A stretch of DNA of 47,112 nucleotides from Selenomonadales bacterium (GTDB lineage Bacteria > Bacillota > Negativicutes > Sporomusales > UBA7701). Of this stretch, positions 2,768-46,408 are shown piece after piece. A model generated the notes under the pieces. The model saw only the letters and a list, made by a program, of their open reading frames with translations. It ran no database searches and was not told where the DNA came from. The stretch covers positions 1 through 47,112 of the forward strand of contig JARKNV010000030.1 of the NCBI GenBank assembly GCA_029976065.1, written 5' to 3'. Both the position numbers and the translations under genes were made by a program. The first letter of the stretch is position 1. Every line of letters begins with the position of its first letter.

Positions 2768-3916
2768 ATGCTGTACAGAAAGTATGGCAAGACCGGTGAA
2801 AAGGTTTCTGTTCTGGGATTTGGCTGCATGCGGCTGCCGATAATCGGCAAAGATCCGACGAATATCGACGAGGGCCAGGCAATCGGCATGCTCCGCTATG
2901 CCATCGACGCCGGCGTCAATTACGTCGACACCGCGTACCCGTATCACGGCGCCGGCTTCACCCAGGGCGGGGCCAGCGAGCCGCTTGTCGCCAAGGCCTT
3001 GAAAGACGGCTACCGGGAAAAAGTCAACCTCGCCACCAAGCTGCCGAGCTGGTTGGTGAAAACCAGGGCCGACATGGACAAATACCTCAACGAGCAGTTG
3101 GCGCGTCTGGAAACGGATGTAATCGACTTTTACCTGGTCCATAACCTGAACCAAGGTGTCTGGCCTGCGCTGAAAGCAGCCGGCATCGCCGAATTTCTCG
3201 ATCAGGCGATTAAGGACGGGCGAATCCGCCACGCCGGATTTTCCTTCCATGACCAGGTCGGCTTGTTTAAGGAAATCGTCGATTATTATGACTGGTCTTT
3301 TTGCCAGATCCAGTATAATTACCTGGACGAAAAGTTCCAGGCCGGCAGGGAAGGGCTGGAGTATGCGGCCCGGAAAGGGTTGGGCATTGCGGTCATGGAG
3401 CCCCTGAAAGGCGGCAATCTGGTCCGCCTGCCCGCGGAAGTCAAAGCGATCTTCGCGCGGGCAGGCGTCGAAAGAACGCCGGCGGAATGGGCTCTCAGAT
3501 GGGTGTGGAATCATCCGGAAGTATCCGTGGTATTGAGCGGCATGACGGCTATGGAACATGTCGTCGAGAATATCCGCGTGGCCCGTGAAGGCGCGGCGAA
3601 CTCCCTGACGGCGGAAGAAACGGCAACTATCGATGCAGTGAAGACGCTGTTCAGGGAAAGAATAAAAATAAATTGTACCGCGTGCGCCTATTGTATGCCT
3701 TGCCCCGCCGGCATCAACATTCCCGGCTGCTTTGCCGCCTACAACGACCATTGGGTTTTTGAAGGCAGTCCCGAAGCGCGGAACGTGTACGGAATTTTAG
3801 CGAAGATCGCCGCGCCGGCGTCCAAATGCCTGGCGTGCGGCAAGTGCGAAAGCCACTGCCCGCAGGCGATCGGGATTCGCGAAGAACTGAAAAAAGTAAC
3901 AGCGCTGTTCGAATAA
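2768..3916 (+). CDS. aldo/keto reductase with C-terminal 4Fe-4S ferredoxin-like domain
   Basis: 382 residues. Residues 1-290 form an aldo/keto reductase barrel: GFGCMRLP, GVNYVDTAYPYHG (Asp and Tyr of the catalytic tetrad), ATKLPSW (Lys) and DFYLVHN (His). The C-terminal 80 residues hold two Cys clusters, CTACAYCMPCPAGI and CLACGKCESHCPQ, the signature of the Fe-S-containing aldo/keto reductases common in anaerobes. These are thought to move electrons between a carbonyl substrate and ferredoxin-like carriers; the substrate is unknown. The ATG has AAAGGTGGG upstream. It follows the ArsR gene and probably belongs to its regulon. It converges on the formate dehydrogenase gene at a shared terminator. 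Confidence 0.93.
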   Translation: MLYRKYGKTGEKVSVLGFGCMRLPIIGKDPTNIDEGQAIGMLRYAIDAGVNYVDTAYPYHGAGFTQGGASEPLVAKALKDGYREKVNLATKLPSWLVKTRADMDKYLNEQLARLETDVIDFYLVHNLNQGVWPALKAAGIAEFLDQAIKDGRIRHAGFSFHDQVGLFKEIVDYYDWSFCQIQYNYLDEKFQAGREGLEYAARKGLGIAVMEPLKGGNLVRLPAEVKAIFARAGVERTPAEWALRWVWNHPEVSVVLSGMTAMEHVVENIRVAREGAANSLTAEETATIDAVKTLFRERIKINCTACAYCMPCPAGINIPGCFAAYNDHWVFEGSPEARNVYGILAKIAAPASKCLACGKCESHCPQAIGIREELKKVTALFE

Positions 3917-3960
3917 CGCCGGCCTGGCAGGCGGCGGCTTCAGCGGAGCGGCGCGACCAC

Positions 3961-3994
3961 AGAAATCCCCGGCCTATAAAGGCCGGGGATTTTC
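3961..3994. terminator. bidirectional terminator between the reductase and fdh
   Basis: AGAAATCCCCGGCC and its complement around TATAA, with A- and T-rich flanks on both sides. It serves the convergent genes ending at 3916 (+) and 3999 (-). Confidence 0.8.
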
Positions 3995-3998
3995 TCCG

Positions 3999-6500
3999 TT
4001 ATCTTGCCTTCCTGATATCCACCAGGCAGGTTTTGGCTGTCGGCGTGCCGGCCGTCGGATCGGCGGCGGCGCTCGTGACGGCGTTCGCGCCCAGCGCCGA
4101 TGCCGCCCGGCCGAGCGGCATCGCCACCGTGTGGACGGTCCGCCCGCCGGCCGTCAGCGGCCGCAGCGCGCCGCTCACCCGCACCGTGGCATGCGTCTCG
4201 CCGCGGGCCGACGCCACCGCCGCCTTATCGCCGTCCGCCAGCCCCAGTTCGTCCGCCAGCGCCGCCGACACCTCCACCGTCACGGCCGTCTCGTCGCCGG
4301 CCGGAGCGGCATAGGTCGTCAGCACATAGGGGAAAACGGCTTTTCCGCCTGTGGCCGGCGCCCGCAACAGGGGGGTGGCGTTGACCGCCGGGTGGAGGGC
4401 GTTGGCCAGCGGGCTCTCCGCCGGCTCGTAGTGTTCCGGCAAAGGGCCGTCCAGGCACACGGCCGCCACCCTCGCCGGCGCCGCTTCCCCCTTGCGCCGG
4501 CTGGCGTACGGGGCCGCGAACAGGCGGGCCGTCCCCTCGGCGGTGGCGAAAACGCCGTCCTCGTACAATATCGATTGATTATGCGGCCAGGCGAAGGTCC
4601 TTCCCGCCGCCAGCGCCTCGGCCGCCCCGGCATACAGCCGGCAGGCGCGGCCGATTTCCGCCAGCACCTTTTTCGCGTCCGCCGGCCGGCCGTAATCCCA
4701 CCGCGCCGCCAGCAAAGGCGCGTCCTGCGCCGCCCGGCTGGCCGCGTACAGCGAGCGCACCGCCCGGAAGAGCCGGTCGATTATCGCCAGATCGGGCCTT
4801 GCCAGTCCCGCCGGGCGGAGGAGCTGCTGCTGCCGTTGGACGAGGCGGCTGCCGCTGGTCAGCGAACCGTCCTTCTCGTAAAAGTGGGCCGCCGGCAAAA
4901 ACAGCACCTCCGTCTTGACCGCTGCCGGCCGCACGCCGGGCAGCCGCCAGAACTCGGCCGTCTCCGACGGGAAGAGATCAACCACCGCCAGCGTGTCGAG
5001 CGCCGCCAGCGCCTGGGTCGCCAGGCGGTTGTCGGGGGTGCCGGTCAGCGGGTTGATGCCCACCGCCAGCGCCGCCTTGAATTGCCCGGCCGCCATGGCC
5101 GCCAGCATCGGCAGATAGGTGGCCGGCTTGTCCGCCCCCCGGCGCGGCAGCCAGCGGTAGCACTCGTCCGGACTCCCCGCGAACCACGCCGCCAGCAGCG
5201 CCGCGAGGTCGCCGGCCGCTTCCGTGCCGTGGCGGGCCGCGTAGTCCGTGAGCGTCTCCTCCCCGTGCGCCGGCGCCGGCAGATAGCCGGGCAGGCTGGT
5301 GGCGAGGCCGCCGAGGTCGGTCGACCCCTGCACGTTCGCCTCGCCCCTGAGCGCGTTCACCCCGCCGCCCGCCACCCCAACGGCCCCCAGGAGCAGCGAC
5401 AGGATGGCGTAGCAGCGGATCGTCTGCACCGCCGTCGTATGCTGCGTTATGCCCAAAGCGTACAGGATGGCCAGCGGCCGCCGTCCCGCCACCGCGGCCG
5501 CCAGCTCCTCGATGGTCGCCGCCGGCACGCCGGTTATGTCCGCCGCCGTCGCCGCCTCGTAGCGGCTGAAGTGCCCCCGCAGGTGGCTGAAAACCGTTCC
5601 CGGCGCGTCGATATCCGCCGCCATGGCCGGGCGGCCCCCGCCGTCGAGCCGATAAGCCCAGCGGGAAATGTCATAGCTCCCGGCGGCGGCGTCATAGCCC
5701 GCGAACAGCCCATCCGTGAAGTCGTAGCCGGGATTCACCGCATAGCGGGCGTTCGTGCGCCGCGTTACATACTCGCGGTCGAACAATTCTTTTTTCAGGA
5801 TAATGTTTATCACCGCCCCCAGCAGGGCGATGTCGCTGCCGGGGCGGAGCTGGGCGAAAACGTCGGCCTGGGCGGCGGTTGCGGTGCGGCGGGGGTCGAC
5901 GACCACCACCTTCGCCCCGGCCGCCCGCGCGGCCAGCACCTGCCGCATCGCCGCCGGATGGTTGTCGGCCGCGTTGGCCCCGGCGATCAGCACCGTTCCG
6001 GCCTTGTCCAGATCGGCCCACGAATTTGTCGTCGCCCCGTACCCGAATGTCGATGACAGACCTGCCACCGTGGGGGCGTGTCAGACGCGGGCCTGGTGCT
6101 CGATATACGGCGACCCCAGCAGGCGGCTGAACTTGGCGAGCAGATAGCTTTCCTCGTTCGTTATCGCCGCCGAGCCGAACACCGCGATGCCGTCGGTGCG
6201 GGCGTCGTCATGGACCCAGCCCGCGTCGCGCGCCTCCTTCAGCCGCGCAGCAAGCCGGGCGATCGCCTGCCGCCAGGTGATTTCCCGCCACTCGCCGGCG
6301 CCCGCCGGGCGCCACAGTGGCCGGGTGACGCGGCCCGGCTGGCCGCGGTGGCAGTCCGGACCGGCCTTGGGGCACAGGGCACCCTGGCTGACGGGGTGGG
6401 CGGGGTCGCCCCGGACGGCGACGATTTCATTCTTGTTTACCGTAAACAGGGCGCCGCAGCCCCCGGAGCAAAAACGGCAAATTCCTGGAATTGTCGGCAT
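3999..6500 (-). CDS. fdhF: selenocysteine-containing formate dehydrogenase, molybdopterin catalytic subunit
   Basis: One gene interrupted by an in-frame UGA at 6081-6083, read here as selenocysteine (residue 140 of 833). The flanking residues, HQARV-(Sec)-HAPTVAGL, match the active site of molybdenum/tungsten formate dehydrogenases such as E. coli FdhF. A SECIS hairpin follows at once. The N-terminus carries a 4Fe-4S motif (CRFCSGGCGALF, then ALCPKAG), followed by the molybdopterin domains (LIAGANAADNHP, VVVVDPRRTATA, GGGVNALRGEANVQGS) and the C-terminal dinucleotide-binding domain (VEVSAALADELGLADGD). It oxidises formate to CO2 or the reverse. No Fe-S or flavin partner subunit is nearby, so it may act alone with ferredoxin or with subunits encoded elsewhere. 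Ribosome binding site GGGAGG lies upstream of the ATG, next to the GTCAG repeat array. Confidence 0.93.
6051..6070 (-). promoter_or_regulatory. bacterial SECIS element of fdhF
   Basis: On the minus strand, beginning 11 bases after the UGA, CGGTGGC and GTCATCG pair over seven base pairs (two of them G-U) around the loop AGGTCT. The GCAGGTCTG loop region is the same as in the E. coli fdhF SECIS as I remember it. It recruits SelB and Sec-tRNA to recode the UGA. Confidence 0.85.
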
Positions 6501-8180: not shown

Positions 8181-9476
8181 ATGGATAAGGTTTTCGAGTT
8201 TGGATTCGGTGACCAGAAGCTTAAGCTCGCCCTGCCGGAAGAGCAGGTAATAGAGGTTATCAAAGGGCGGGAGTATCCGCCGGTGACCGATGTTGCCGCG
8301 GCGGTCAAGGAAGCGCTGAACAACCCCATCGGCACTCCGCCCCTGAAGGATATCGTAAAGCCGGGCGAGAAGGTCGGCATCGTCGTCAGCGACATCACCC
8401 GGGCCTGGGTCAAGTTCAATTTCTTCCTGCCGGTGCTGCTCGACGAGCTGAACGCCTGCGGAATTCCCGACAGCGACATGTTTATCGTCATCGGTCTCGG
8501 CGCCCACCGCGCCCACAACGCGGACGAGGACGTCCTGGTGTGCGGCCAGGATGTCTGCCACCGGGTGCCCATTTACCAGCACGACTGCCATAACAAGGAC
8601 GAGCTCACGTATGTGGGCAAGACTAAGCGCGGCGTCGAGACTTACATCAACAAGCGCCTGGCCGAGGCGGACCGGATGATTATCACCGGCGGCATCGTGT
8701 ATCATTTCATGGCCGGCTTCGGCGGCGGCCGCAAGTCGATCATGCCGGCGATCAGCGGCTTCCGCACCATCCAGGGCAACCACCTGTTCTGCATGAACAA
8801 GGAGGTGGGCAAGGGCCTGAACCCGCTGTGCGCCTCGGGGTCGCTGGAGACGAACGACATGCATCACGATATGTGCGACATGGCCGAGCTCGCCAAGCCC
8901 GATTTCCTGCTGAACGCCGTCTTCACGCCCGAGGGCAAGTTCGCCAAGTTTTTCGCCGGCCACTGGTACAAGGCGTGGGAGGCGGGCGCCAAGCTGGTGG
9001 AGGAGATTTACGGCGTGCCGATCAAGGCCCAGGCCGACCTGGTAATTGCCTCTTCGGGCGGTTTCCCGAAGGATATCAACCTCTACCAGGGCTCGAAGAC
9101 GATCGACAACGCCTTTATGGCCTGCAAGCCCGGCGGGGCGATCATCTGCATCATGGAGTGCCGCGATATTTACGAGCCGCGGGAATTCAGCGACTGGTTC
9201 AAGTATAAGGATATGCTGGAGTTCGAGATGGCCATCCGCAACCATTTCACCATCCCGGGCTTCGTGGCGTACAAGTGCGCCGACATCGCCAAGAAGCACC
9301 CGCTGATCGTGGTGACCAAGCCCGAGAATGTCGATTTCGTCAACGGCACGGGCATGATCGCCGTGACCAGCCTGGACGAAGCTTACCGCATCGCCAAGGA
9401 GAAGCTCGGCAGGAAGGATTTCACCATCACCGTCATGCCGGGAGCGGCGAACACGGTGCCTGTGCTGCAAGGGTAG
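8181..9476 (+). CDS. larA: LarA-family nickel-pincer racemase (lactate racemase-like)
   Basis: 431 residues from ATG 8181 with GAGGTGG about eight bases upstream. The fold family is DUF2088/LarA. Residues matching the catalytic set of L. plantarum LarA are visible: GLGAHRAHN (first His), then YHFMAGFGGGRKS in which the His and Lys are ten apart (His174/Lys184 equivalents), and IQGNH with the His 16 further on (His200 equivalent). LarA uses a nickel-pincer nucleotide linked to that Lys to racemise lactate; homologues act on other 2-hydroxy acids, so the substrate is open. No larB/C/E cofactor genes are nearby. A second homologue starts at 46444 beside GlcD/GlcF genes. A strong terminator follows. 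Confidence 0.85.
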   Translation: MDKVFEFGFGDQKLKLALPEEQVIEVIKGREYPPVTDVAAAVKEALNNPIGTPPLKDIVKPGEKVGIVVSDITRAWVKFNFFLPVLLDELNACGIPDSDMFIVIGLGAHRAHNADEDVLVCGQDVCHRVPIYQHDCHNKDELTYVGKTKRGVETYINKRLAEADRMIITGGIVYHFMAGFGGGRKSIMPAISGFRTIQGNHLFCMNKEVGKGLNPLCASGSLETNDMHHDMCDMAELAKPDFLLNAVFTPEGKFAKFFAGHWYKAWEAGAKLVEEIYGVPIKAQADLVIASSGGFPKDINLYQGSKTIDNAFMACKPGGAIICIMECRDIYEPREFSDWFKYKDMLEFEMAIRNHFTIPGFVAYKCADIAKKHPLIVVTKPENVDFVNGTGMIAVTSLDEAYRIAKEKLGRKDFTITVMPGAANTVPVLQG

Positions 9477-36170: not shown

Positions 36171-37034
36171 TTAATAGTATTCAATCTCCTGGGTGAACGT
36201 CTGCGCCGCCGCCTGCCCGTTCGCGTCGCGGCGGGTCATGATGAGCCGGGTCCAGTTGCCGTGCTTGTCGTATTCGCCCTGGATGGCGAGGGTGACGGAG
36301 GCGGGGGGCTTGTCGGCCTGGAAGAAGGCGTCGGTGAGGTGGCCGCGCAGGTCGTAGCGGTATTCGAGCTTGTTCTGAGTTTCGGCGGTGGCCGGGCCGT
36401 CCGGCTGGGCCGAGCCGACGAGGAGGCGGCTTAAGATGCGGCCGTTGGCGTCGTAGGCGCGTTCGACGTTCAGCGTGCCGTGCTTGGTCATGCGCGAGGC
36501 TTCCCGGATGAGGAGGCCGGCGGGGTTGTATTCGTAGATGGCTTCGTAGAGGACGCCTTCGGGGTAGCGGACGGTTTTGGCGATGACCCGGCCGTTGGCG
36601 TCAAGCGTGCCGCCGCCCAGTTCCGCGGTTTGGCCGCCCAGGGCCGGGGCGACGACTCTGAAGGCGCGGCCTGAGGCGTCGTATTGGACGAAGAGGGCGG
36701 ACTGCTTGCCGGCGGGGATGTTTTCCAGCCGCTTGACGGGGCGGCCGGCTTCGTATATGATTTCTTCGTTGGTGAGTCCGGGGATGAACTGTTCACGGCT
36801 CAGAGGCTTGCCGTCGTGGTCGAAGGATGCCGACCAGCGGGATTCGCCGGTTTTGACGGTGACTTTTTTAACCGGGCCGAGCAGGGGGCCCTGGAGTTCG
36901 TCGCTGAGGTAGAGGTTGAAGATGCCGGCGGGGAAGCGCTGGGTACTTTTCTCGGCGGCGAGGACGGCGCCGGGCAGGATGACGAGGGCCGCCAGCAGAA
37001 GAGCCAGAATGCGGGCGTATGAGGGTTTTTTCAT
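36171..37034 (-). CDS. exported YD/RHS-repeat-like protein
   Basis: 287 residues with a signal peptide (residues about 1-26, ILALLLAALVILPGAVLAAE). The rest holds loosely repeated beta motifs typical of YD/RHS repeats: YDASGRAFRVVAPALGG, LDANGRVIAKTVRYPEG, YEYNPAGLLIREASRM, YDANGRILSRLLVG, YRYDLRGHLTDAFFQ and YDKHGNWTRLIMTRR. Such repeats form beta wraps that bind carbohydrate or envelope partners. No toxin domain is visible and it is much shorter than RHS toxins. Function is unknown. Confidence 0.8.
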   Translation of the reverse strand: MKKPSYARILALLLAALVILPGAVLAAEKSTQRFPAGIFNLYLSDELQGPLLGPVKKVTVKTGESRWSASFDHDGKPLSREQFIPGLTNEEIIYEAGRPVKRLENIPAGKQSALFVQYDASGRAFRVVAPALGGQTAELGGGTLDANGRVIAKTVRYPEGVLYEAIYEYNPAGLLIREASRMTKHGTLNVERAYDANGRILSRLLVGSAQPDGPATAETQNKLEYRYDLRGHLTDAFFQADKPPASVTLAIQGEYDKHGNWTRLIMTRRDANGQAAAQTFTQEIEYY

Positions 37035-37191
37035 GGGGTTGCAAGCCTCCCGTGATAATGTTTTAGCAAATATTTACATTCGAGTAAAAATTTACAAATC
37101 CTGCCAGCGGCAAAAATATTTCGTCGTAAAGCGGGAAAAACTTCCTGCAAAAGACCCCGGTAATTCCACTTATTTTCAGCCCATGACCTTA

Positions 37192-37251: not shown

Positions 37252-37328
37252 GGTGGCTGTGGTGAAGCGGTTAACACGGCGGATTGTGGATCCGTTATGC
37301 GAGGGTTCGAACCCCTCCAGTCACCCCA
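37252..37328 (+). tRNA. tRNA-His (anticodon GTG)
   Basis: Cloverleaf with acceptor GTGGCTG/CAGTCAC, anticodon loop TTGTGGA, T arm GAGGG-TTCGAAC-CCCTC and the tRNA-His-specific extra 5' G opposite the C discriminator; CCA is encoded. Confidence 0.95.
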
Positions 37329-37343
37329 CTCAAATCAATACAC

Positions 37344-37419
37344 AGGGGCGTAGCCAAGGCGGTAAGGCAACGGACTTTGACTCCGTCATGCGTTGGTTCG
37401 AGTCCAGCCGCCCCTGCCA
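37344..37419 (+). tRNA. tRNA-Gln (anticodon TTG)
   Basis: Acceptor AGGGGCG/CGCCCCT, anticodon loop CTTTGAC, T arm GCTGG-type around TTCGAGT, encoded CCA. 15 bases after tRNA-His. Confidence 0.95.
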
Positions 37420-37426
37420 CACATGT

Positions 37427-37502
37427 GACCCACTAGCTCAGTCGGTAGAGCACCTGACTTTTAATCAGGGTGTCGATGGTTCGAGTCCATCGTGGGTCAC
37501 CA
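37427..37502 (+). tRNA. tRNA-Lys (anticodon TTT)
   Basis: Acceptor GACCCAC/GTGGGTC, D arm GCTCAGTCGGTAGAGC, anticodon arm CTGA-CTTTTAA-TCAG, T arm GATGG-TTCGAGT-CCATC, encoded CCA. Confidence 0.96.
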
Positions 37503-37521
37503 TTTTCTATGTTTGTAACCT

Positions 37522-37606
37522 GCGGGCGTGGCGGAACTGGCAGACGCGACGGACTTAGGATCCGTTGGGTAAAACCGTGGGGGTTCAAGTCCCTTCGCCC
37601 GCACCA
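37522..37606 (+). tRNA. tRNA-Leu (anticodon TAG)
   Basis: Class II tRNA with a long variable arm (TGGGTAAAACCGT). Acceptor GCGGGCG/CGCCCGC, anticodon loop CTTAGGA, encoded CCA. Confidence 0.96.
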
Positions 37607-37616
37607 AATGACAGCA

Positions 37617-37655
37617 GCGAGACCTTCGCCAGGCAGGCGGGGGTCTCGTTTTTTT
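37617..37655 (+). terminator. terminator of the tRNA cluster
   Basis: CGAGACC and GGTCTCG arms followed by seven T. Confidence 0.85.
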
Positions 37656-37728
37656 ATGCGGGGGCGTGAGCGGCAGGAAAGGGAGCGGCGGAGAAAAAGG
37701 GCGCGCTATGACAAAATATTACAAGTGT

Positions 37729-37756
37729 AAGGCCTTCGGTTAATTCCGGAGGCCTT
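37729..37756 (+). terminator. hairpin just ahead of the peptide array
   Basis: AAGGCC-TT-CGG, loop TTAATT, CCG-GA-GGCCTT then TTCG. It insulates the peptide genes from upstream transcription. A similar hairpin precedes the second sub-array. Confidence 0.7.
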
Positions 37757-37770
37757 TTCGGAAGTATTTT

Positions 37771-37830
37771 TGCTGTAGGCTATATTTTTTGCAGGAGATA
37801 GGGAATTTTTGTCGAAGAAGGAAGAAAAGG
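37771..37830 (+). promoter_or_regulatory. duplicated upstream element A, with TGTCGAA box
   Basis: Shares about 55 bases with 39199-39258: the ordered words TATATTTTT, GCAGGA, GGGA, TTTTGTCGAAGAAGGAAGAA. TGTCGAA at 37810-37816 equals the core of the Spo0A binding box. TATATT could be a -10 element. It lies about 97 bases ahead of the first peptide gene, right after a terminator, so it is the likely promoter region of sub-array 1. Confidence 0.6.
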
Positions 37831-37912
37831 GAGAAGCCGGATAAGGTGACGGGGGAACGGCGAAGTTTTGCGAACTGGGGCGTCAGGCCGCGGTGAAGGA
37901 GGAGAGAAGGAT

Positions 37913-38134
37913 TTGACCGAGGAGAAGAAGCGCGCCGGTAAGAAGGCGGGCAAGGAAGAGAAGGCCAAGAACGTCGAGAAGCTGACGGACGAGAAGCTTG
38001 CCGGGGTGGCGGGCGGGATTATGTGCCGGCCGGACGGCTCCTGCCAGCCGGACAGGGTGCAGTGCGCGCCGCCGCCGCCGCCACCGACGCGCGAGAAGTG
38101 CCGGCCGGAATGCGCGGTGATACAGGCCCGCTGA
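37913..38134 (+). CDS. Cys-x-Pro peptide precursor 1
   Basis: 73 residues from a TTG start with AAGGAGG ten bases upstream. Lys-rich leader ending NVEKLTDEKLAGVAGG, then a core of 39 residues with five Cys: MCRPDGSC, QPDRVQCAPPPPPPTREKCR, PECAVIQAR. Four of the five Cys are in C-x-P. The six-Pro run is unique to this member. The leader double Gly is the expected cleavage site. First gene of sub-array 1. Confidence 0.75.
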   Translation: MTEEKKRAGKKAGKEEKAKNVEKLTDEKLAGVAGGIMCRPDGSCQPDRVQCAPPPPPPTREKCRPECAVIQAR

Positions 38135-38161
38135 GGAGAACAGGATCGGAAGGGTGGCAGG

Positions 38162-38383
38162 ATGACGGGCAATAATAAAGGCTCCGGCAAAAAGGAGAAG
38201 GCCGGGAATGTGGAGCAGCTTACGGACGAAAGCCTGGACAAGGTGTCCGGCGGGAAGAAGATTTGCGTGCTCTGCCAGCCCCAGTACAAGGACAAGGATA
38301 AGGCGGATTCCGGAGAACAGCCGCTGTGCCGGCCGCAGCTGGAGGGGCCCGAGTCCCGGCCCTGCTTGCCGCGTGGCTATTGA
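38162..38383 (+). CDS. Cys-x-Pro peptide precursor 2
   Basis: 73 residues; ATG with GAAGGGTGG upstream. Leader ends NVEQLTDESLDKVSGG at residue 31. Core: KKICVLCQPQYKDKDK, ADSGEQPLCRPQLEG, PESRPCLPRGY; four Cys, three in C-x-P (CQP, CRP, CLP). The opening CVLC-QPQ is shared with precursor 7 (CLIC-QPQ), suggesting these two form a subtype. Confidence 0.78.
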   Translation: MTGNNKGSGKKEKAGNVEQLTDESLDKVSGGKKICVLCQPQYKDKDKADSGEQPLCRPQLEGPESRPCLPRGY

Positions 38384-38437
38384 GGGACGGGGCGGAGGCC
38401 ATGCGAATACGCCAACCTGATTAACGGAGGAAATGTG

Positions 38438-38638
38438 ATGACTTGCAGCAAGAAGGGCGCCGGCAAAGCGGAGCGGGAAAGCGGCATCGAAAAGCTGACG
38501 GACGAGAGCCTGGACAAGGTGTCGGGGGGAGCGGTGGACAAATGCGCGCCCGACAGCTGCTTTCCGACGATGGTCGAGTGCGACCCGCAGCATGTGCCGC
38601 ACTGTAAACCGCTGACGCCGCCATGGGAGAAGAAGTGA
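38438..38638 (+). CDS. Cys-x-Pro peptide precursor 3
   Basis: 66 residues from ATG 38438, seven bases after GGAGG; a GTG directly before it is also in frame. Leader has MTC at the start and ends GIEKLTDESLDKVSGG. Core: AVDKCAPDSCFPTMVECDPQ then HVPHCKPLTPPWEKK; all four core Cys are C-x-P. Confidence 0.8.
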   Translation: MTCSKKGAGKAERESGIEKLTDESLDKVSGGAVDKCAPDSCFPTMVECDPQHVPHCKPLTPPWEKK

Positions 38639-38675
38639 ACGGAACGATCAATGAAAATGAAGGGAGAGAAAGAAG

Positions 38676-38870
38676 ATGACGTGCAACAAGAAGGGTCCGT
38701 GCAAAGAGGAGAAGGCCAAGAGTGTGGAAAAGCTGACGGACGAGAGCCTGGACAAGGTGTCGGGGGGCAAAGTGGGCTGCGCGCCTACGTCGACGCCGTG
38801 CGAGCCGAAACGGAAAGTGGACGGCGGGCCGTCGCCCTGCAAGCCCGGTCGCTGCGGGCCGGCCATATAA
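38676..38870 (+). CDS. Cys-x-Pro peptide precursor 4
   Basis: 64 residues, AGGGAG upstream. Leader of 31 residues: MTCNKKGPCKEEKAKSVEKL followed by TDESLDKVSGG. Core KVGCAPTSTPCEPKRKV, then DGGPSPCKPGRCGPAI; all four core Cys are C-x-P. The leader and first part of the core are nearly identical at DNA level to precursor 5, a recent duplication. Confidence 0.82.
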   Translation: MTCNKKGPCKEEKAKSVEKLTDESLDKVSGGKVGCAPTSTPCEPKRKVDGGPSPCKPGRCGPAI

Positions 38871-38924
38871 GGCAGGGAACGAACGACAGCGTTTAGCGAT
38901 TACATATAAAGGAGGGAAAAGAAG

Positions 38925-39089
38925 ATGACTTGCAATAAGAAGGGTCCTTGCAAAGAGGAGAAGGCCAAGAGCGTGGAAAAGCTGACGGACGAGAGCCTGG
39001 ACAAGGTGTCGGGGGGCAAAGTGGGCTGCGCGCCTACGTCGACGCCGTGCGAACCGAAACGGAAAGTGGGCTGCGGGCCGACGACCTGA
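38925..39089 (+). CDS. Cys-x-Pro peptide precursor 5
   Basis: 54 residues, ATG after AAAGGAGGG; below usual length cut-offs. Leader identical to precursor 4. The core KVGCAPTSTPCEPKRKV, then GCGPTT, has three Cys, all C-x-P. It diverges from precursor 4 only near the end, where it stops early. Last gene of sub-array 1; a terminator follows. Confidence 0.82.
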   Translation: MTCNKKGPCKEEKAKSVEKLTDESLDKVSGGKVGCAPTSTPCEPKRKVGCGPTT

Positions 39090-39158
39090 CGACAAGGCCC
39101 GGAGAAGACGGGGCGGGATTAACGCGCCGCAAAACGATAAAATGGTTCGCTAATAAAA

Positions 39159-39187
39159 CCTCCGGCTAATGCCGGGGGATATTTTTT
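39159..39187 (+). terminator. terminator between the two peptide sub-arrays
   Basis: CCTCCGGC, loop TAAT, GCCGGGGG, then ATATTTTTT. It divides the nine genes into groups of five and four. Confidence 0.85.
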
Positions 39188-39198
39188 GAGAAAAAATT

Positions 39199-39258
39199 TA
39201 CCGTGAGTTATATTTTTGGCAGGATATCGGGATATTTTGTCGAAGAAGGAAGAAAAAG
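39199..39258 (+). promoter_or_regulatory. duplicated upstream element B, with TGTCGAA box
   Basis: Second copy of the element at 37771-37830; TGTCGAA at 39238-39244, about 79 bases before precursor 6. As in copy A it directly follows a terminator, so each sub-array seems to have its own promoter with the same control. Confidence 0.6.
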
Positions 39259-39322
39259 GTTTACTAAGCCGCGACAAAGATTGAAGGGGGCGCGGTTACG
39301 GGTCAGCGACAGGGGAAGGGAA

Positions 39323-39549
39323 ATGGCCGAGGGGAAGAAGACCGCCGCCGATAAGGCGGGCGGGAATGAGAGGGAGAAGCATGTCGAGCGGCCGACGGAC
39401 GAGAAGCTGGAGGGTGTGACGGGGGCGAGGGGTGGAAGCCGCGGTGCGGGCCGGTGGCTTGCCTGCCTTACGACCCCGAGTGCTACCCGCGGACGCAATA
39501 TTGCCAGCCGAACTGCATTCCGGGCAGGTGCAAGCCGCTGGCGCCGTGA
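39323..39549 (+). pseudogene. Cys-x-Pro peptide precursor 6, frameshifted
   Basis: ATG 39323 after AAGGG opens a leader like the others (AADKAGGNEREKHVERPTDE, then KLEGVTG). The frame then goes astray at a run of five G (39421-39425). With six G it would read VTGGEGWKPRCGPVACLPYD, then PECYPRTQYCQPNCIPG and RCKPLAP, stopping at 39549. That core has six Cys, all C-x-P, the richest in the array. So one G is missing, either by mutation or by a sequencing error in a homopolymer. As given, the frame runs on to 39598 with no core. Confidence 0.8.
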
Positions 39550-39597
39550 AAGAACGAGACCGCCGGAAAGACAGACGAAAGATAAGGGGGGATTGTG

Positions 39598-39843
39598 ATG
39601 AGTAGTAATAAGAAGGATGGCAAGGAAGAGAAGGGCCGGAACGTCGAGAAGCTGACCAGAGAAGAGCTTGACAAGGTTTCAGGGGGGAAGGTCTGCCTGA
39701 TCTGCCAGCCCCAGCACGAGAACCAGACCGAGGGGAAGGTGGGCTGCAAGCCGTCGTGGCCGCCGCAGGGCGAGCCGCATGAGGCGACGCCGCAGATTCA
39801 CTGGTGCGGGCCGACCGGCGGCTGCAAACCCAAGCAGGATTAG
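39598..39843 (+). CDS. Cys-x-Pro peptide precursor 7
   Basis: 81 residues from ATG 39598, seven bases after AAGGGGG; the longest member. Leader ends NVEKLTREELDKVSGG. Core: KVCLICQPQHENQTEGKVGC, then KPSWPPQGEPHEATPQIHWC and GPTGGCKPKQD; five Cys, four in C-x-P. The start KVCLICQPQ resembles precursor 2. Confidence 0.8.
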   Translation: MSSNKKDGKEEKGRNVEKLTREELDKVSGGKVCLICQPQHENQTEGKVGCKPSWPPQGEPHEATPQIHWCGPTGGCKPKQD

Positions 39844-39904
39844 GGACCCCGGCGGCGCCGGCGTGAAACGACCCGTAAATAGCGCGACGGGGGATGGAGA
39901 ACCG

Positions 39905-40111
39905 GTGACCGGCGAGGAGGGTCCCGGCAAGGAAGAGAAAGAAAAGCATGTCGAGCGGCTGACGGACGAGAAACTGGATAAGGTGTCGGGAGGGACGCCG
40001 ATCATTTGTACCCCGAAGACGCCGTGCACGCCGTATGATCCGTGCAAGCCGAAACTGGAGACAGGGTGGCCGTGCGATCCGGCTTCCTGCAACCCGCAGG
40101 CGTATCTCTGA
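39905..40111 (+). CDS. Cys-x-Pro peptide precursor 8
   Basis: 68 residues from GTG 39905 with GGAGA upstream; a longer in-frame opening exists but has no ribosome binding site and no similarity to other members. Begins MTGEEGPGKEEK as precursor 2 begins MTGNN. Leader ends HVERLTDEKLDKVSGG. Core: TPIICTPKTPCTPYDPCKPK, then LETGWPCDPASCNPQAYL; five Cys, all C-x-P. Confidence 0.78.
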   Translation: MTGEEGPGKEEKEKHVERLTDEKLDKVSGGTPIICTPKTPCTPYDPCKPKLETGWPCDPASCNPQAYL

Positions 40112-40152
40112 GGCCCCATTTGGGGGAACAAAAAATAAGGAGGAGAAGGAAA

Positions 40153-40371
40153 ATGACCTGCAATAAAAAGAGCCCCTGCAAAGAGGAGAAGGCCAAGAGC
40201 GTCGAAAAGCTGACGGACGAGAGCCTGGACAAGGTGTCGGGCGGGAAAAATATCGGCTGCCAGCCGTCGTGGTCGCCGTGCGAGCCGAAGGGTAAGGTGG
40301 GCTGCGGGCCGACCTCGACGCCGTGCGAGCCGAAGAAGAATGCCAACTACTGCGCGCCGGTTGATATGTGA
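40153..40371 (+). CDS. Cys-x-Pro peptide precursor 9
   Basis: 72 residues, ATG after AAGGAGGAGAAGG. Leader nearly identical to precursors 4 and 5 (MTCNKKSPCKEEKAKSVEKL). Core KNIGCQPSWSPCEPKGKV, then GCGPTSTPCEPKKNANYC and APVDM; five Cys, all C-x-P. The core looks like two tandem copies of a GC-x-P ... PCEPK unit. Last intact precursor, 113 bases before the radical SAM gene. Confidence 0.82.
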   Translation: MTCNKKSPCKEEKAKSVEKLTDESLDKVSGGKNIGCQPSWSPCEPKGKVGCGPTSTPCEPKKNANYCAPVDM

Positions 40372-40415
40372 AACGGGACGCCGTGGTGAAACGGCCGGGC
40401 GGCGAGCCGACGTAG

Positions 40416-40445
40416 TCGCCGTGCCGGCCGAAAAGCGAGGCCTAA
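40416..40445 (+). pseudogene. possible remnant of a tenth core
   Basis: After a TAG the frame reads SPCRPKSEA then stop, close to the SPCEPK part of precursor 9. No leader is joined to it. It may be a decayed duplicate or chance similarity. Confidence 0.3.
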
Positions 40446-40484
40446 GGACGGATATCGGCAGAGGATTTAACAGAGGATTAATTT

Positions 40485-41699
40485 ATGGCGGGTGAACAGC
40501 GGATGAGGAAGACGGTCGCCCTCAGCAAGGATTTGCTGCTGGTGAAGGGCGCGCACAAGCATTGCATTTACGACCTGGCCGGCGGCAAACTGTACCGGGT
40601 ATCGGCGGCGGCCGGGGCGGTGGCGGAGAAGCATGCGCGGGGCGCGGTCCTCGACGCGGAAGAGGAAGCGGTGAGGGACGAGCTGGCGGCGGCCGGCATC
40701 CTCGGCCCGGCGGGCCAGGGACCGGTGCGCAAGCGGACGGGTCCGGCGGCGCAGCCGAGCTTCGCCTGGCTGGTGATAACCGACCGCTGCAATCTGCGGT
40801 GCCTGCACTGCTACGAGGACGCGAAGGCCGCCGGGGGGCGCGACATGAGTTTCGCGGATTTCGAGCGGGCGGTGGCCGAGGTGCAGGCGGCGGGGATAAG
40901 GAAGGCGCAACTGATCGGCGGCGAGCCGATGGCGCACCCTGATTTCCGGAGGATGGTGGAGCACGCCGCCAGGCGGTTCAAGTTCCTGGAGGTGTTCACG
41001 AACGGGACGCTGATCGACGCGGCGTGGTGCGAGTTTTTCAAGACCCACGGGGTGCATATCGCGGTGTCGGTGTATTCGTACGACGCGGCGGAGCACGACA
41101 AGGTGACGAAGGGCGCGGGCTCGCACGCGCGGACGACGACGGCGGTGGCGCTGCTGAAGGAGCACGGGGTGCCTTGCCGGACGGCCTGCATCCGCATGGC
41201 GGGGATCGCGCTGGGCGAGAAGAATACCGACGCCTACAACCTCGACGAGGGGAGCGACGTCGTGCGCCTGACGGGGCGCGGCAACCTCGGCCTGCTGGAC
41301 GCGGCGCTTGTGAAGCAGCGGCTGACGACGAAGGAGATGTTCCGCTGGCCGCTGGTGAGGAAGACGGTGGAGCGGGCGCTGGCGCGCCACAATTGCTTCG
41401 GCCGCGATGTGTGCATTTCGCCGACGCTGGAGGTTTATCCGTGCATCATGGAGCGGCGGATCAGCCACGGCAACCTGCGGGAGACGGGGCTGAAGGCGCT
41501 GATGAAGCGGGAGCTTTGCGGGCTGAACAAGGACAAGGTGGAGGGCTGCCGGGACTGTGAGTTCCGCTACGCCTGCCACGATTGCCGCCCGGACGCGCTG
41601 GACGGCGATTTGACCGCGAAGCCGTGGTACTGCACGTATGACCCGTACAGCGGGGAGTGGGAGGATGCCGACGCCGCGGTGCAAAGGATACTGGGATAG
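40485..41699 (+). CDS. radical SAM/SPASM peptide maturase
   Basis: 404 residues. Residues about 8-72 (VALSKDLLLVKGAHKHCIYD, LAGGKLYRVSAAAGAV) look like the PqqD-type winged-helix leader-recognition region found at the start of many peptide-modifying radical SAM enzymes. The radical SAM motif is C102-x3-C106-x2-C109 in TDRCNLRCLHCYED, followed by LIGGEPMAHPDF (the GGEP motif). The C-terminal SPASM region has Cys ligands for auxiliary 4Fe-4S clusters: NCFGRDVCISPTLEVYPCIM, then GCRDCEFRYACHDCRPDA and WYCTYDP. SPASM enzymes of this type form thioether or C-C links in ribosomal peptides. It is the only modifying enzyme beside nine precursors, so it is the likely maturase for all. Confidence 0.92.
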   Translation: MAGEQRMRKTVALSKDLLLVKGAHKHCIYDLAGGKLYRVSAAAGAVAEKHARGAVLDAEEEAVRDELAAAGILGPAGQGPVRKRTGPAAQPSFAWLVITDRCNLRCLHCYEDAKAAGGRDMSFADFERAVAEVQAAGIRKAQLIGGEPMAHPDFRRMVEHAARRFKFLEVFTNGTLIDAAWCEFFKTHGVHIAVSVYSYDAAEHDKVTKGAGSHARTTTAVALLKEHGVPCRTACIRMAGIALGEKNTDAYNLDEGSDVVRLTGRGNLGLLDAALVKQRLTTKEMFRWPLVRKTVERALARHNCFGRDVCISPTLEVYPCIMERRISHGNLRETGLKALMKRELCGLNKDKVEGCRDCEFRYACHDCRPDALDGDLTAKPWYCTYDPYSGEWEDADAAVQRILG

Positions 41700-41772: not shown

Positions 41773-42237
41773 TTATTCGTCGTCGTCGGGGCGGCCGTTC
41801 AGCACCGCCAAGGCGTCCGCTACGGCTTCGGCGAAGGCGATGGGGTCGCCGACGTTTTCGAAGTGGACGTACATGAGGCGCGGGCGGTCGAACAGCCAGT
41901 GGGTGTGGAGGGCGGATACGAGGAGGCCGGCGTCGCGCAGGGCGTCGATGAAGGGGTTGACTTCGCGCTGGCGGACGGGAACTTCGCCGGTGTTGAGGGT
42001 GTTGCCGTTGATGTCGGGGGACTGGTAGTCGAACATGGCGGCCGCCTGGTAGGGCCAGCCGAGGATGGCGGTGGAGAGCTCGGGCCGCGGGCGGCTGACA
42101 AGGCAGGAGGCTTCGGTGGAGTCGAGGACGTTGCCGCCGAGGATGCGGCCGAACTGGCGGCAGACGCTGGTGTTGTTGGCGATTTCGCCGGCGACGTAGA
42201 CGGCGGCGTTGGTTTTGTTTTTGGGCAAGCTTATCAT
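41773..42237 (-). CDS. DUF1259-like protein
   Basis: 154 residues from ATG 42237; TTG 42228 has a better-spaced GGGAG and is an alternative. Further upstream codons read as low-quality Pro/Arg sequence. The C-terminal LLVSALHTHWLFDRPRLMYV and HFENVGDPIAFAEAVADAL match the SALHxH...PRxxxxH pattern of DUF1259 (LppY/LpqO-like) proteins. Earlier: AVYVAGEIANNTSVCRQFGR, MFDYQSPDINGNTL. Function of the family is unknown. There is no signal peptide in this version, and it is shorter than two-domain relatives. Confidence 0.7.
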   Translation of the reverse strand: MISLPKNKTNAAVYVAGEIANNTSVCRQFGRILGGNVLDSTEASCLVSRPRPELSTAILGWPYQAAAMFDYQSPDINGNTLNTGEVPVRQREVNPFIDALRDAGLLVSALHTHWLFDRPRLMYVHFENVGDPIAFAEAVADALAVLNGRPDDDE

Positions 42238-42481
42238 CTCCCGTAACGGTTTTCGATATATATTATGGGAAATCTGGATGTTATGTGAACGCGGGAGATG
42301 CCTGGGCCGGGAGGGCGGAGGGCGCAGGCTTTGGCTGGCCCAATGCCGGGTGACAGCCATGCATGAAGGAATTGGCAAAGAAACGGGCCGGGCAATGCCG
42401 GTTGCGTTGAGAGGAACATTTATGTTACTCTGAAAAAAAGGCCTTATTTATCGACAGGGGCCGACACCTTGGGAGGATGCT

Positions 42482-46195: not shown

Positions 46196-46408
46196 AGGCA
46201 GAACCGCAAACTCGCCGGCGACTTTGCGGAGGCTGACTACGCGCCGTTAACGAAGGACGCCGTGAACGACACCGCACGAGCGGCCATGGACGGCCGCGAG
46301 AGTCGACAAACGAACATGGATGTGATTTTGGGGGCGGTGCGGCGGAGTCGGCGCGAGTTTACGGCGCGTTCAGCCGGAGAACGGAGCCGGCGTTTGACGG
46401 TTCTGCCT
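46196..46408. repeat. 213-bp MITE-like element with long inverted repeats
   Basis: The ends AGGCAGAACCGCAAACTCGC and the reverse complement of the last bases, AGGCAGAACCGTCAAACGCC, match, and similarity continues inward for about 55 bases (both arms reach ACGCGCCGT). It has no supportable gene and no obvious target duplication. It sits between glcF and larA in what would otherwise be one operon; it may be a non-autonomous transposon or fold in the mRNA. Confidence 0.65.

Follow-up and report, generated by a model that had tools for sequence, protein, structure and literature searches.

A nine-gene array of Cys-x-Pro precursors beside a radical SAM/SPASM enzyme, and its predicted spore-coat relatives in the Negativicutes

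Here, we describe a peptide gene array in a window of 47,112 nucleotides, the whole stretch of DNA that was analyzed (contig JARKNV010000030.1 of assembly GCA_029976065.1, a Selenomonadales bacterium related to the spore-forming genus Sporomusa). On the + strand, 3' of four tRNA genes (37253-37606), the window carries nine small precursor genes (37913-40371) and, directly behind them, a gene for a radical S-adenosylmethionine (SAM)/SPASM enzyme of 404 residues (40485-41699). The precursor leaders, which end in Gly-Gly, are nearly identical (genes 4 and 5 share MTCNKKGPCKEEKAKSVEKLTDESLDKVSGG), and the core ends differ. Eight of the nine precursor genes are intact: gene 1 (37913-38134, with a TTG start and a leader ending in VAGG), gene 2 (38162-38383), gene 3 (38438-38638), gene 4 (38676-38870), gene 5 (38925-39089), gene 7 (39598-39843), gene 8 (39905-40111, with a GTG start), and gene 9 (40153-40371). 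Gene 6 (39323-39549) is broken, with its leader in the frame of the ATG at 39323 and its core in another frame; an intact relative in the protein database, P0149, has leader and core in one frame. The double Gly is present in all eight intact genes and in all 17 rows of our precursor profile, A2, and the best score with model TIGR01847 was 13.3 bits versus a cut-off of 15.7. A preliminary description of this DNA had reported nine tandem genes with a shared leader followed by a radical SAM/SPASM gene, which we confirmed except that gene 6 is split, and our results support its view that several precursors with one enzyme form the layout of a radical SAM system for ribosomally synthesized and post-translationally modified peptides (RiPPs).

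Nearly all cysteines in the array cores fall in one motif, Cys-x-Pro (C-x-P), which holds 37 of the 40 core cysteines; when every core was shuffled 2000 times, the mean was 7.7 and the maximum 15. The motif accounts for four of five core cysteines in gene 1, for all five in the broken gene 6, and for 32 of 35 when gene 6 is left out. Seven cysteines occur in the leaders of the intact genes, all of them outside C-x-P. Position x is unconstrained (K, Q, A, E, G, and R, among others). The preliminary description had already named C-x-P, and for the array the motif indeed proved to be key; what that description missed is that the motif is shared across the enzyme family beside unrelated leaders, and that the family includes a sporulation-linked sister clade.

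The enzyme has a radical SAM core (PF04055, 76.9 bits versus a cut-off of 29.5) with the CxxxCxxC motif at C102/C106/C109, which is invariant in all 31 rows of the family alignment. Toward the C-terminus, the seven SPASM cysteines (C304, C320, C355, C358, C364, C367, and C383) are likewise invariant in 31 of 31 rows, and an eighth is missing in 28 of them. The spacing at the end of the SPASM region is C-x2-C-x5-C-x2-C, where x2 replaces the x3 of the published motif (PMC6231123), and the SPASM model PF13186 stays below cut-off (14.6 versus 21.5 bits). The nearest folds are SkfB, CteB, and SuiB, and fold comparison indicates that the N-terminus (about residues 10-75) is likely a RiPP recognition element (RRE)-type domain. 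Structures of PapB and SCIFF maturases were not among the fold matches, an absence that carries no evidential weight. Of 72 NCBIfam families compared, the 25 with the highest scores for this enzyme (down to 48 bits) all stay below their cut-offs.

We looked for relatives of the array in 28 genomes of the order, including that of the window, and in 300 genomes of the class. Among the order genomes, an enzyme of the window type occurs in the window's own genome (G000) and, at 88% identity, in G002 and G004; these genomes carry nine, four, and five precursors, respectively. The profile A2, built from 17 precursors, gave strong matches (E 1e-17 or better) in these same three genomes and in no other of the 300 (best E 5e-32 to 6e-35; the leader of gene 6 is the exception at E 3e-5), so that strong precursor matches and window-type enzymes coincide, in line with part of the check proposed in the preliminary description. 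Another 20 class genomes have weak matches (E 3e-6 to 1e-3): in G016, G021, and G022 these lie on coat-type C-x-P proteins, and most of the remainder cover the leader part only. Against 5.8 billion proteins, A2 found 37 precursors at E 0.01, including the window's own, and a database enzyme, P0003, shares 73% identity with that of the window; its longest contig is equal in length to that of two of the precursors, P0137 and P0157. No NCBIfam or Pfam model matches the precursors at cut-off, in agreement with the preliminary suggestion of a new precursor family. A decaying, unexpressed cluster would account for the split gene 6 and for the presence of the array in just three of 300 class genomes. 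Eight precursor genes and the enzyme gene are intact, however, their cores share 41-84% identity with the best counterparts in G002 or G004 (gene 7 is best conserved, at 84% to its counterpart in locus L030), and similar cores recur as families among the 29 examined of the 37 database precursors; we consider decay very improbable. Because the cores are conserved rather than hypervariable, the sequences favor a fixed set of roles for the peptides over an arms race.

More distant relatives of the enzyme (37-49% identity where given) adjoin small C-x-P peptides that have quite different leaders. These small-peptide loci come from Blautia (L013), Roseburia (L011), Synergistaceae (L012, two), Clostridia (L010, two), and genomes G405 (L137, two) and G124 (L138). 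Of 63 cysteines in their peptides, 54 are in C-x-P, versus a mean of 9.2 and at most 20 after shuffling. A scan for a C-x-P peptide beside the enzyme found none in three Bacteroidales-type loci (L014, L016, and L017) or in the Lachnospiraceae locus L018, and locus L015 is cut by a contig end. Shortly 5' of the enzyme in L016 (7678-7815) and L017 (7824-7952), there is an open reading frame (ORF) of 42-45 residues with CCPGECIAGPGSPITR, which is possibly a different precursor of the same enzyme family. In several relatives, an in-frame TGA was considered as a selenocysteine codon and rejected, as in the translated loci it is an ordinary stop at the gene end.

The largest part of the family in the class is a sister type. 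The family profile matches 52 of the 300 class genomes, and the sister type is present in 50 of them (42 from extracted loci and eight by score alone); the exceptions are G000, with the window type only, and G124, with the small-peptide type. Among the order genomes, 27 of 28 have a family member at E <1e-30, and G006 has none. The best 120 of 475 sister-enzyme matches carry names such as Sporomusa, Pelosinus, Methylomusa, Lucifera, and Dendrosporobacter, among others. In a tree of 88 rows (45 of the sister type, with two duplicates, and four of the window type), the sister type and the window type each form one side of a branch with support of 100/100. P0008 and P0017 neighbor the window type (98/85), which falls within the small-peptide clade. 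When 11 other radical SAM proteins (not including CteB, SkfB, or PapB) served as the outgroup, the two clades grouped with support of 97/90. The window array is the double-Gly-leader branch of a C-x-P enzyme family, seen in three genomes.

A trigger-factor gene is present in 24 of 25 clustered sister-type loci, and in most of them clpP, clpX, and lon follow farther out; these identities were confirmed with Pfam for a single representative of each gene. A same-strand C-x-P ORF, defined as having three or more C-x-P that account for half or more of its cysteines, lies near the enzyme in 31 of the 43 sister-type loci extracted, which came from 42 genomes. Such an ORF is also seen in L036, L064, and L075, where only the overlap filter removed it, and none was found in nine of the 43 (L061, L070, L073, L077, L142, L144, L145, L148, and L150). 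Thirteen control loci of other radical SAM genes had none, although seven of these offered 1.5-kb flanks only and some overlapped. In the 31 ORFs, C-x-P holds 447 of 453 cysteines, a figure that the selection filter raises. Most (26 of 31) have their start between 69 bases upstream and 61 bases downstream of the enzyme stop; those of L066, L076, and L156 lie before the enzyme, and those of L146 and L153 are 2-3 kb away. The encoded proteins typically open with an acidic stretch, PKWE.PE..WDD, and have no Gly-Gly leader; some contain coat-type repeats such as CFPRPCFPRP with a unit of five residues. The trigger-factor-linked locus was not found in the window's own assembly, an absence that is uninformative because the trigger factor is unmatched there too and the assembly is 88% complete.

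Three of these loci vary the pattern. In L146, at 3410-4019 (-) and about 2 kb from the enzyme, neighbors have CWPWRGGGGG and CWPRRRPPCSP repeats, of which CWPWR fits the sulfatase motif C-x-P-x-R. An ORF 5' of the enzyme gene in L066 (7591-7854) has C-x-P units split by Tyr/Trp/Gly-rich stretches, and its close relative L070 retains only a fragment of such an ORF (9323-9445).

The sister clade co-occurs with a sporulation gene, spoIVA. SpoIVA (PF09547) is above cut-off in 51 of the 300 class genomes, with one further weak match, and 47 genomes have both SpoIVA and the enzyme family (52 genomes). The enzyme occurs without SpoIVA in G010 (65% complete), G055 (92%), G061 (93%), G085 (83%), and G124 (99%), and SpoIVA without the enzyme in G006, G032, G050, and G089. 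At the genus level, 26 genera are common, of 29 and 28, among 97. Fisher tests of the co-occurrence gave 2.6e-44 and 4.5e-18, values that ignore relatedness. Upstream of the sister enzyme, a sigma-K-like pattern fixed before the sequences were seen, AC-N15-18-CATANNNT[AG], is present in 31 of 35 regions that were extractable from the 43 loci, compared with four of 35 on the reverse strand and a mean of 1.36 in 50 mononucleotide shuffles. With cruder starts, the pattern was found in 16 of 22 regions versus four of the 287 remaining ORFs in these loci (150 residues or more, some not real genes). One sigma-K promoter of C. difficile is given as CATATAAT with AC at -35, and the sigma-E -10 element is described as very similar to that of sigma-K (PMC3789822); sigma-E-like matches occur upstream of the sister enzyme in one of 35 regions. 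Based on the SpoIVA co-occurrence and the sigma-K-like promoter, we predict that the sister system is a late mother-cell locus, probably one of the spore coat.

What does the enzyme do to these peptides? It very probably modifies those of the array. We take the cysteine of C-x-P to be the probable target because the motif is the sole feature common to otherwise differing leaders and organisms. One alternative is that the peptides are Cys-rich metal- or disulfide-binding peptides and that the enzyme makes a change not involving Cys, such as epimerization of residue x. In all three groups, it is C and P that are conserved and not x, and we regard this alternative as improbable.

A second alternative is formylglycine chemistry, in which the cysteine of C-x-P would become an aldehyde and poly-aldehyde peptides or coat proteins would cross-link to amines. 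Anaerobic sulfatase maturases (anSME) act on the motif C-x-P/A-x-R. The C-x-P family has no conserved Arg: C-x-P-x-R is present at just five of the 40 window cysteines, and in the other two groups, Arg is outside the eight commonest residues at that position. The anSME model TIGR03942 scores 54.8 versus 349.45 bits, and the eighth cysteine is the one that most family rows lack. Altogether, formylglycine formation appears quite unlikely.

A thioether is, by a small margin of confidence, the product that we expect. In a classical sactipeptide or ranthipeptide, each cysteine would be tied to a residue outside its own C-x-P unit, giving nested or neighboring rings, and proline would only shape the chain. 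In favor of this arrangement, the nearest folds are SkfB, CteB, and SuiB, and known sactipeptide acceptors are varied (PMC5682303). Acceptor spacing in the array is nevertheless not conserved, with the C-x3-D/E repeat of PapB-type ranthipeptides at only three of 40 window cysteines, and five-residue units like CFPRPCFPRP leave few other acceptors. The curated models of the sactisynthases AlbA and StsB are also far under cut-off (69.7 versus 850 and 77.4 versus 625 bits). We consider this arrangement unlikely, and the classes that the preliminary description gave as examples, sactipeptides and ranthipeptides, go beyond what our comparisons show.

Our preferred reading, which we hold to be evenly balanced between right and wrong as a whole, is that the enzyme binds the shared leader and ties each cysteine within its own C-x-P unit by a thioether bond. 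The leader would dock on the RRE-like N-terminal domain, and the enzyme would then move from unit to unit along the core. A 5'-deoxyadenosyl radical would abstract a hydrogen in the C-x-P unit, most simply at proline, whose tertiary amide could yield an acyliminium ion to be captured by the Cys sulfur; this is the weakest step. Placement of the acceptor inside the unit is tentative, and its identity is only a guess because x varies freely and some coat-type repeat units have five residues. Finally, a C39 peptidase-exporter encoded elsewhere would cleave after Gly-Gly and export the peptides. No C39 exporter was seen at the array, and the single C39 match of the assembly lies in a separate NHLM-type cluster. 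A strong C39 gene is present in the array carriers G000, G002, and G004; of the non-carriers, G003 and G005 have no C39 match and G001 has two weaker ones above cut-off without an array, too few genomes for inference. The NHLM-type RiPP cluster itself (contig 58 of G000, locus L079, 6519-15607) includes a radical SAM gene, the C39 exporter, a further ORF resembling a second ABC gene, and a precursor of 225 residues that has a Gly-rich core and two leader repeats, which are nitrile-hydratase-like and end in VVGG.

Several described systems resemble parts of this one. The CteB/CteA ranthipeptide system is not known to have a C-x-P motif. CteB has the same order of RRE, radical SAM, and SPASM domains (PMC6231123) and aligns in fold over residues 14-384, but it makes a Cys-Thr link (PMC10352776) and is a weak sequence match to the window enzyme (5wgg, E 0.00018). 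The Clo7bot link drawn in the preliminary description found no support, as its model TIGR04068 falls outside the 25 top-scoring models of the 72 for the enzyme. Clo7bot/CcpM systems also combine a single radical SAM enzyme with multiple Cys-rich precursors, but TIGR04068 gave 58.6 and 60.4 bits versus a cut-off of 500 for two distant relatives, and no precursor model matched at cut-off. Among repeat-motif radical SAM RiPPs, a network mapping that annotated 22 new pathways describes one enzyme acting with a short repeated motif, such as TVGG of TvgA or Asp-Cys of Cluster 59 (PMC9062424). C-x-P is not one of the motifs that its section 4 names, and an entry among its 22 pathways is possible.

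No C-x-P radical SAM system was found in the curated libraries or in the open-licence PubMed Central (PMC) literature, and the latter likewise gave no account of a radical SAM enzyme in spore coats, as judged by titles and abstract starts, with subscription papers mostly missing; two genome papers contain both radical SAM and spore-coat terms. We rate the system as a known kind, the radical SAM RiPP, with a new C-x-P motif and a possibly new role. As a bolder view, which we think has some promise without being the likelier outcome, C-x-P may be the recognition unit of an undescribed family of radical SAM cross-linkers that serve to harden materials. In the spore-forming Negativicutes of the sister clade, an enzyme produced late in the mother cell would turn a repetitive C-x-P polypeptide into a thioether-stapled coat polymer, and the array would be the branch in which such units were placed on export leaders as nine secreted peptides. 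Because a single enzyme family and a single three-residue motif go together with three or more unrelated kinds of leader, the target residues are plain and the chemistry is testable. As enzymes of the family adjoin C-x-P proteins in distant bacteria, likely spore-coat proteins among them, this would be a widespread peptide-tailoring chemistry. The window array would be a natural library, with many cores accepted by one enzyme, and confirmation of the sister clade in spores would mean a radical SAM-made structural polymer in the Negativicutes coat, linking RiPP chemistry to sporulation.

The array also has promoter- and terminator-like elements, all on the + strand. A terminator-like hairpin lies 5' of the first transcription unit (37744-37763) and another between genes 5 and 6 (39159-39178), both pattern matches only. 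The promoter-like element GCAGGA...TGTCGAA before gene 1 (37791-37816), which we take to resemble a sigma-H site, has a second copy before gene 6 (39219-39245; expected 0.01 in the window), and the block of gene 1 recurs before sub-arrays in two relatives (L030 at 8248 and 8923; L032 at 10954). A sigma-70-like site at 39186-39214 is an alternative to the element before gene 6. Since two hairpins and a repeated promoter-like block precede genes 1 and 6, the sequence suggests two transcription units. No sigma-K-like site was found on the + strand of 37401-40500. A looser sigma-H-like pattern gave 14, 12, 8, and 8 sites in G000, G001, G002, and G004, compared with 0, 1, 1, and 1 when the pattern was reversed; some sites precede ParB-like and SLH proteins and others fall inside ORFs. 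A stretch taken for SepF beside one such site had no Pfam match.

Elsewhere in the window, a GCAGGA...TCGAA element (37079-37104, -) precedes an RHS-repeat gene (36171-37034) and is conserved in G004. A TwoAYGGAY RNA motif at 46224-46382 (+) scores 45.1, barely above the Rfam gathering score of 43. A DUF1529 (DUF1259) protein adjoins the array at 41773-42249 (-), and similar ORFs lie in the same place in the relatives G002 and G004 (L032 13791-14273 and L030 11160-11624).

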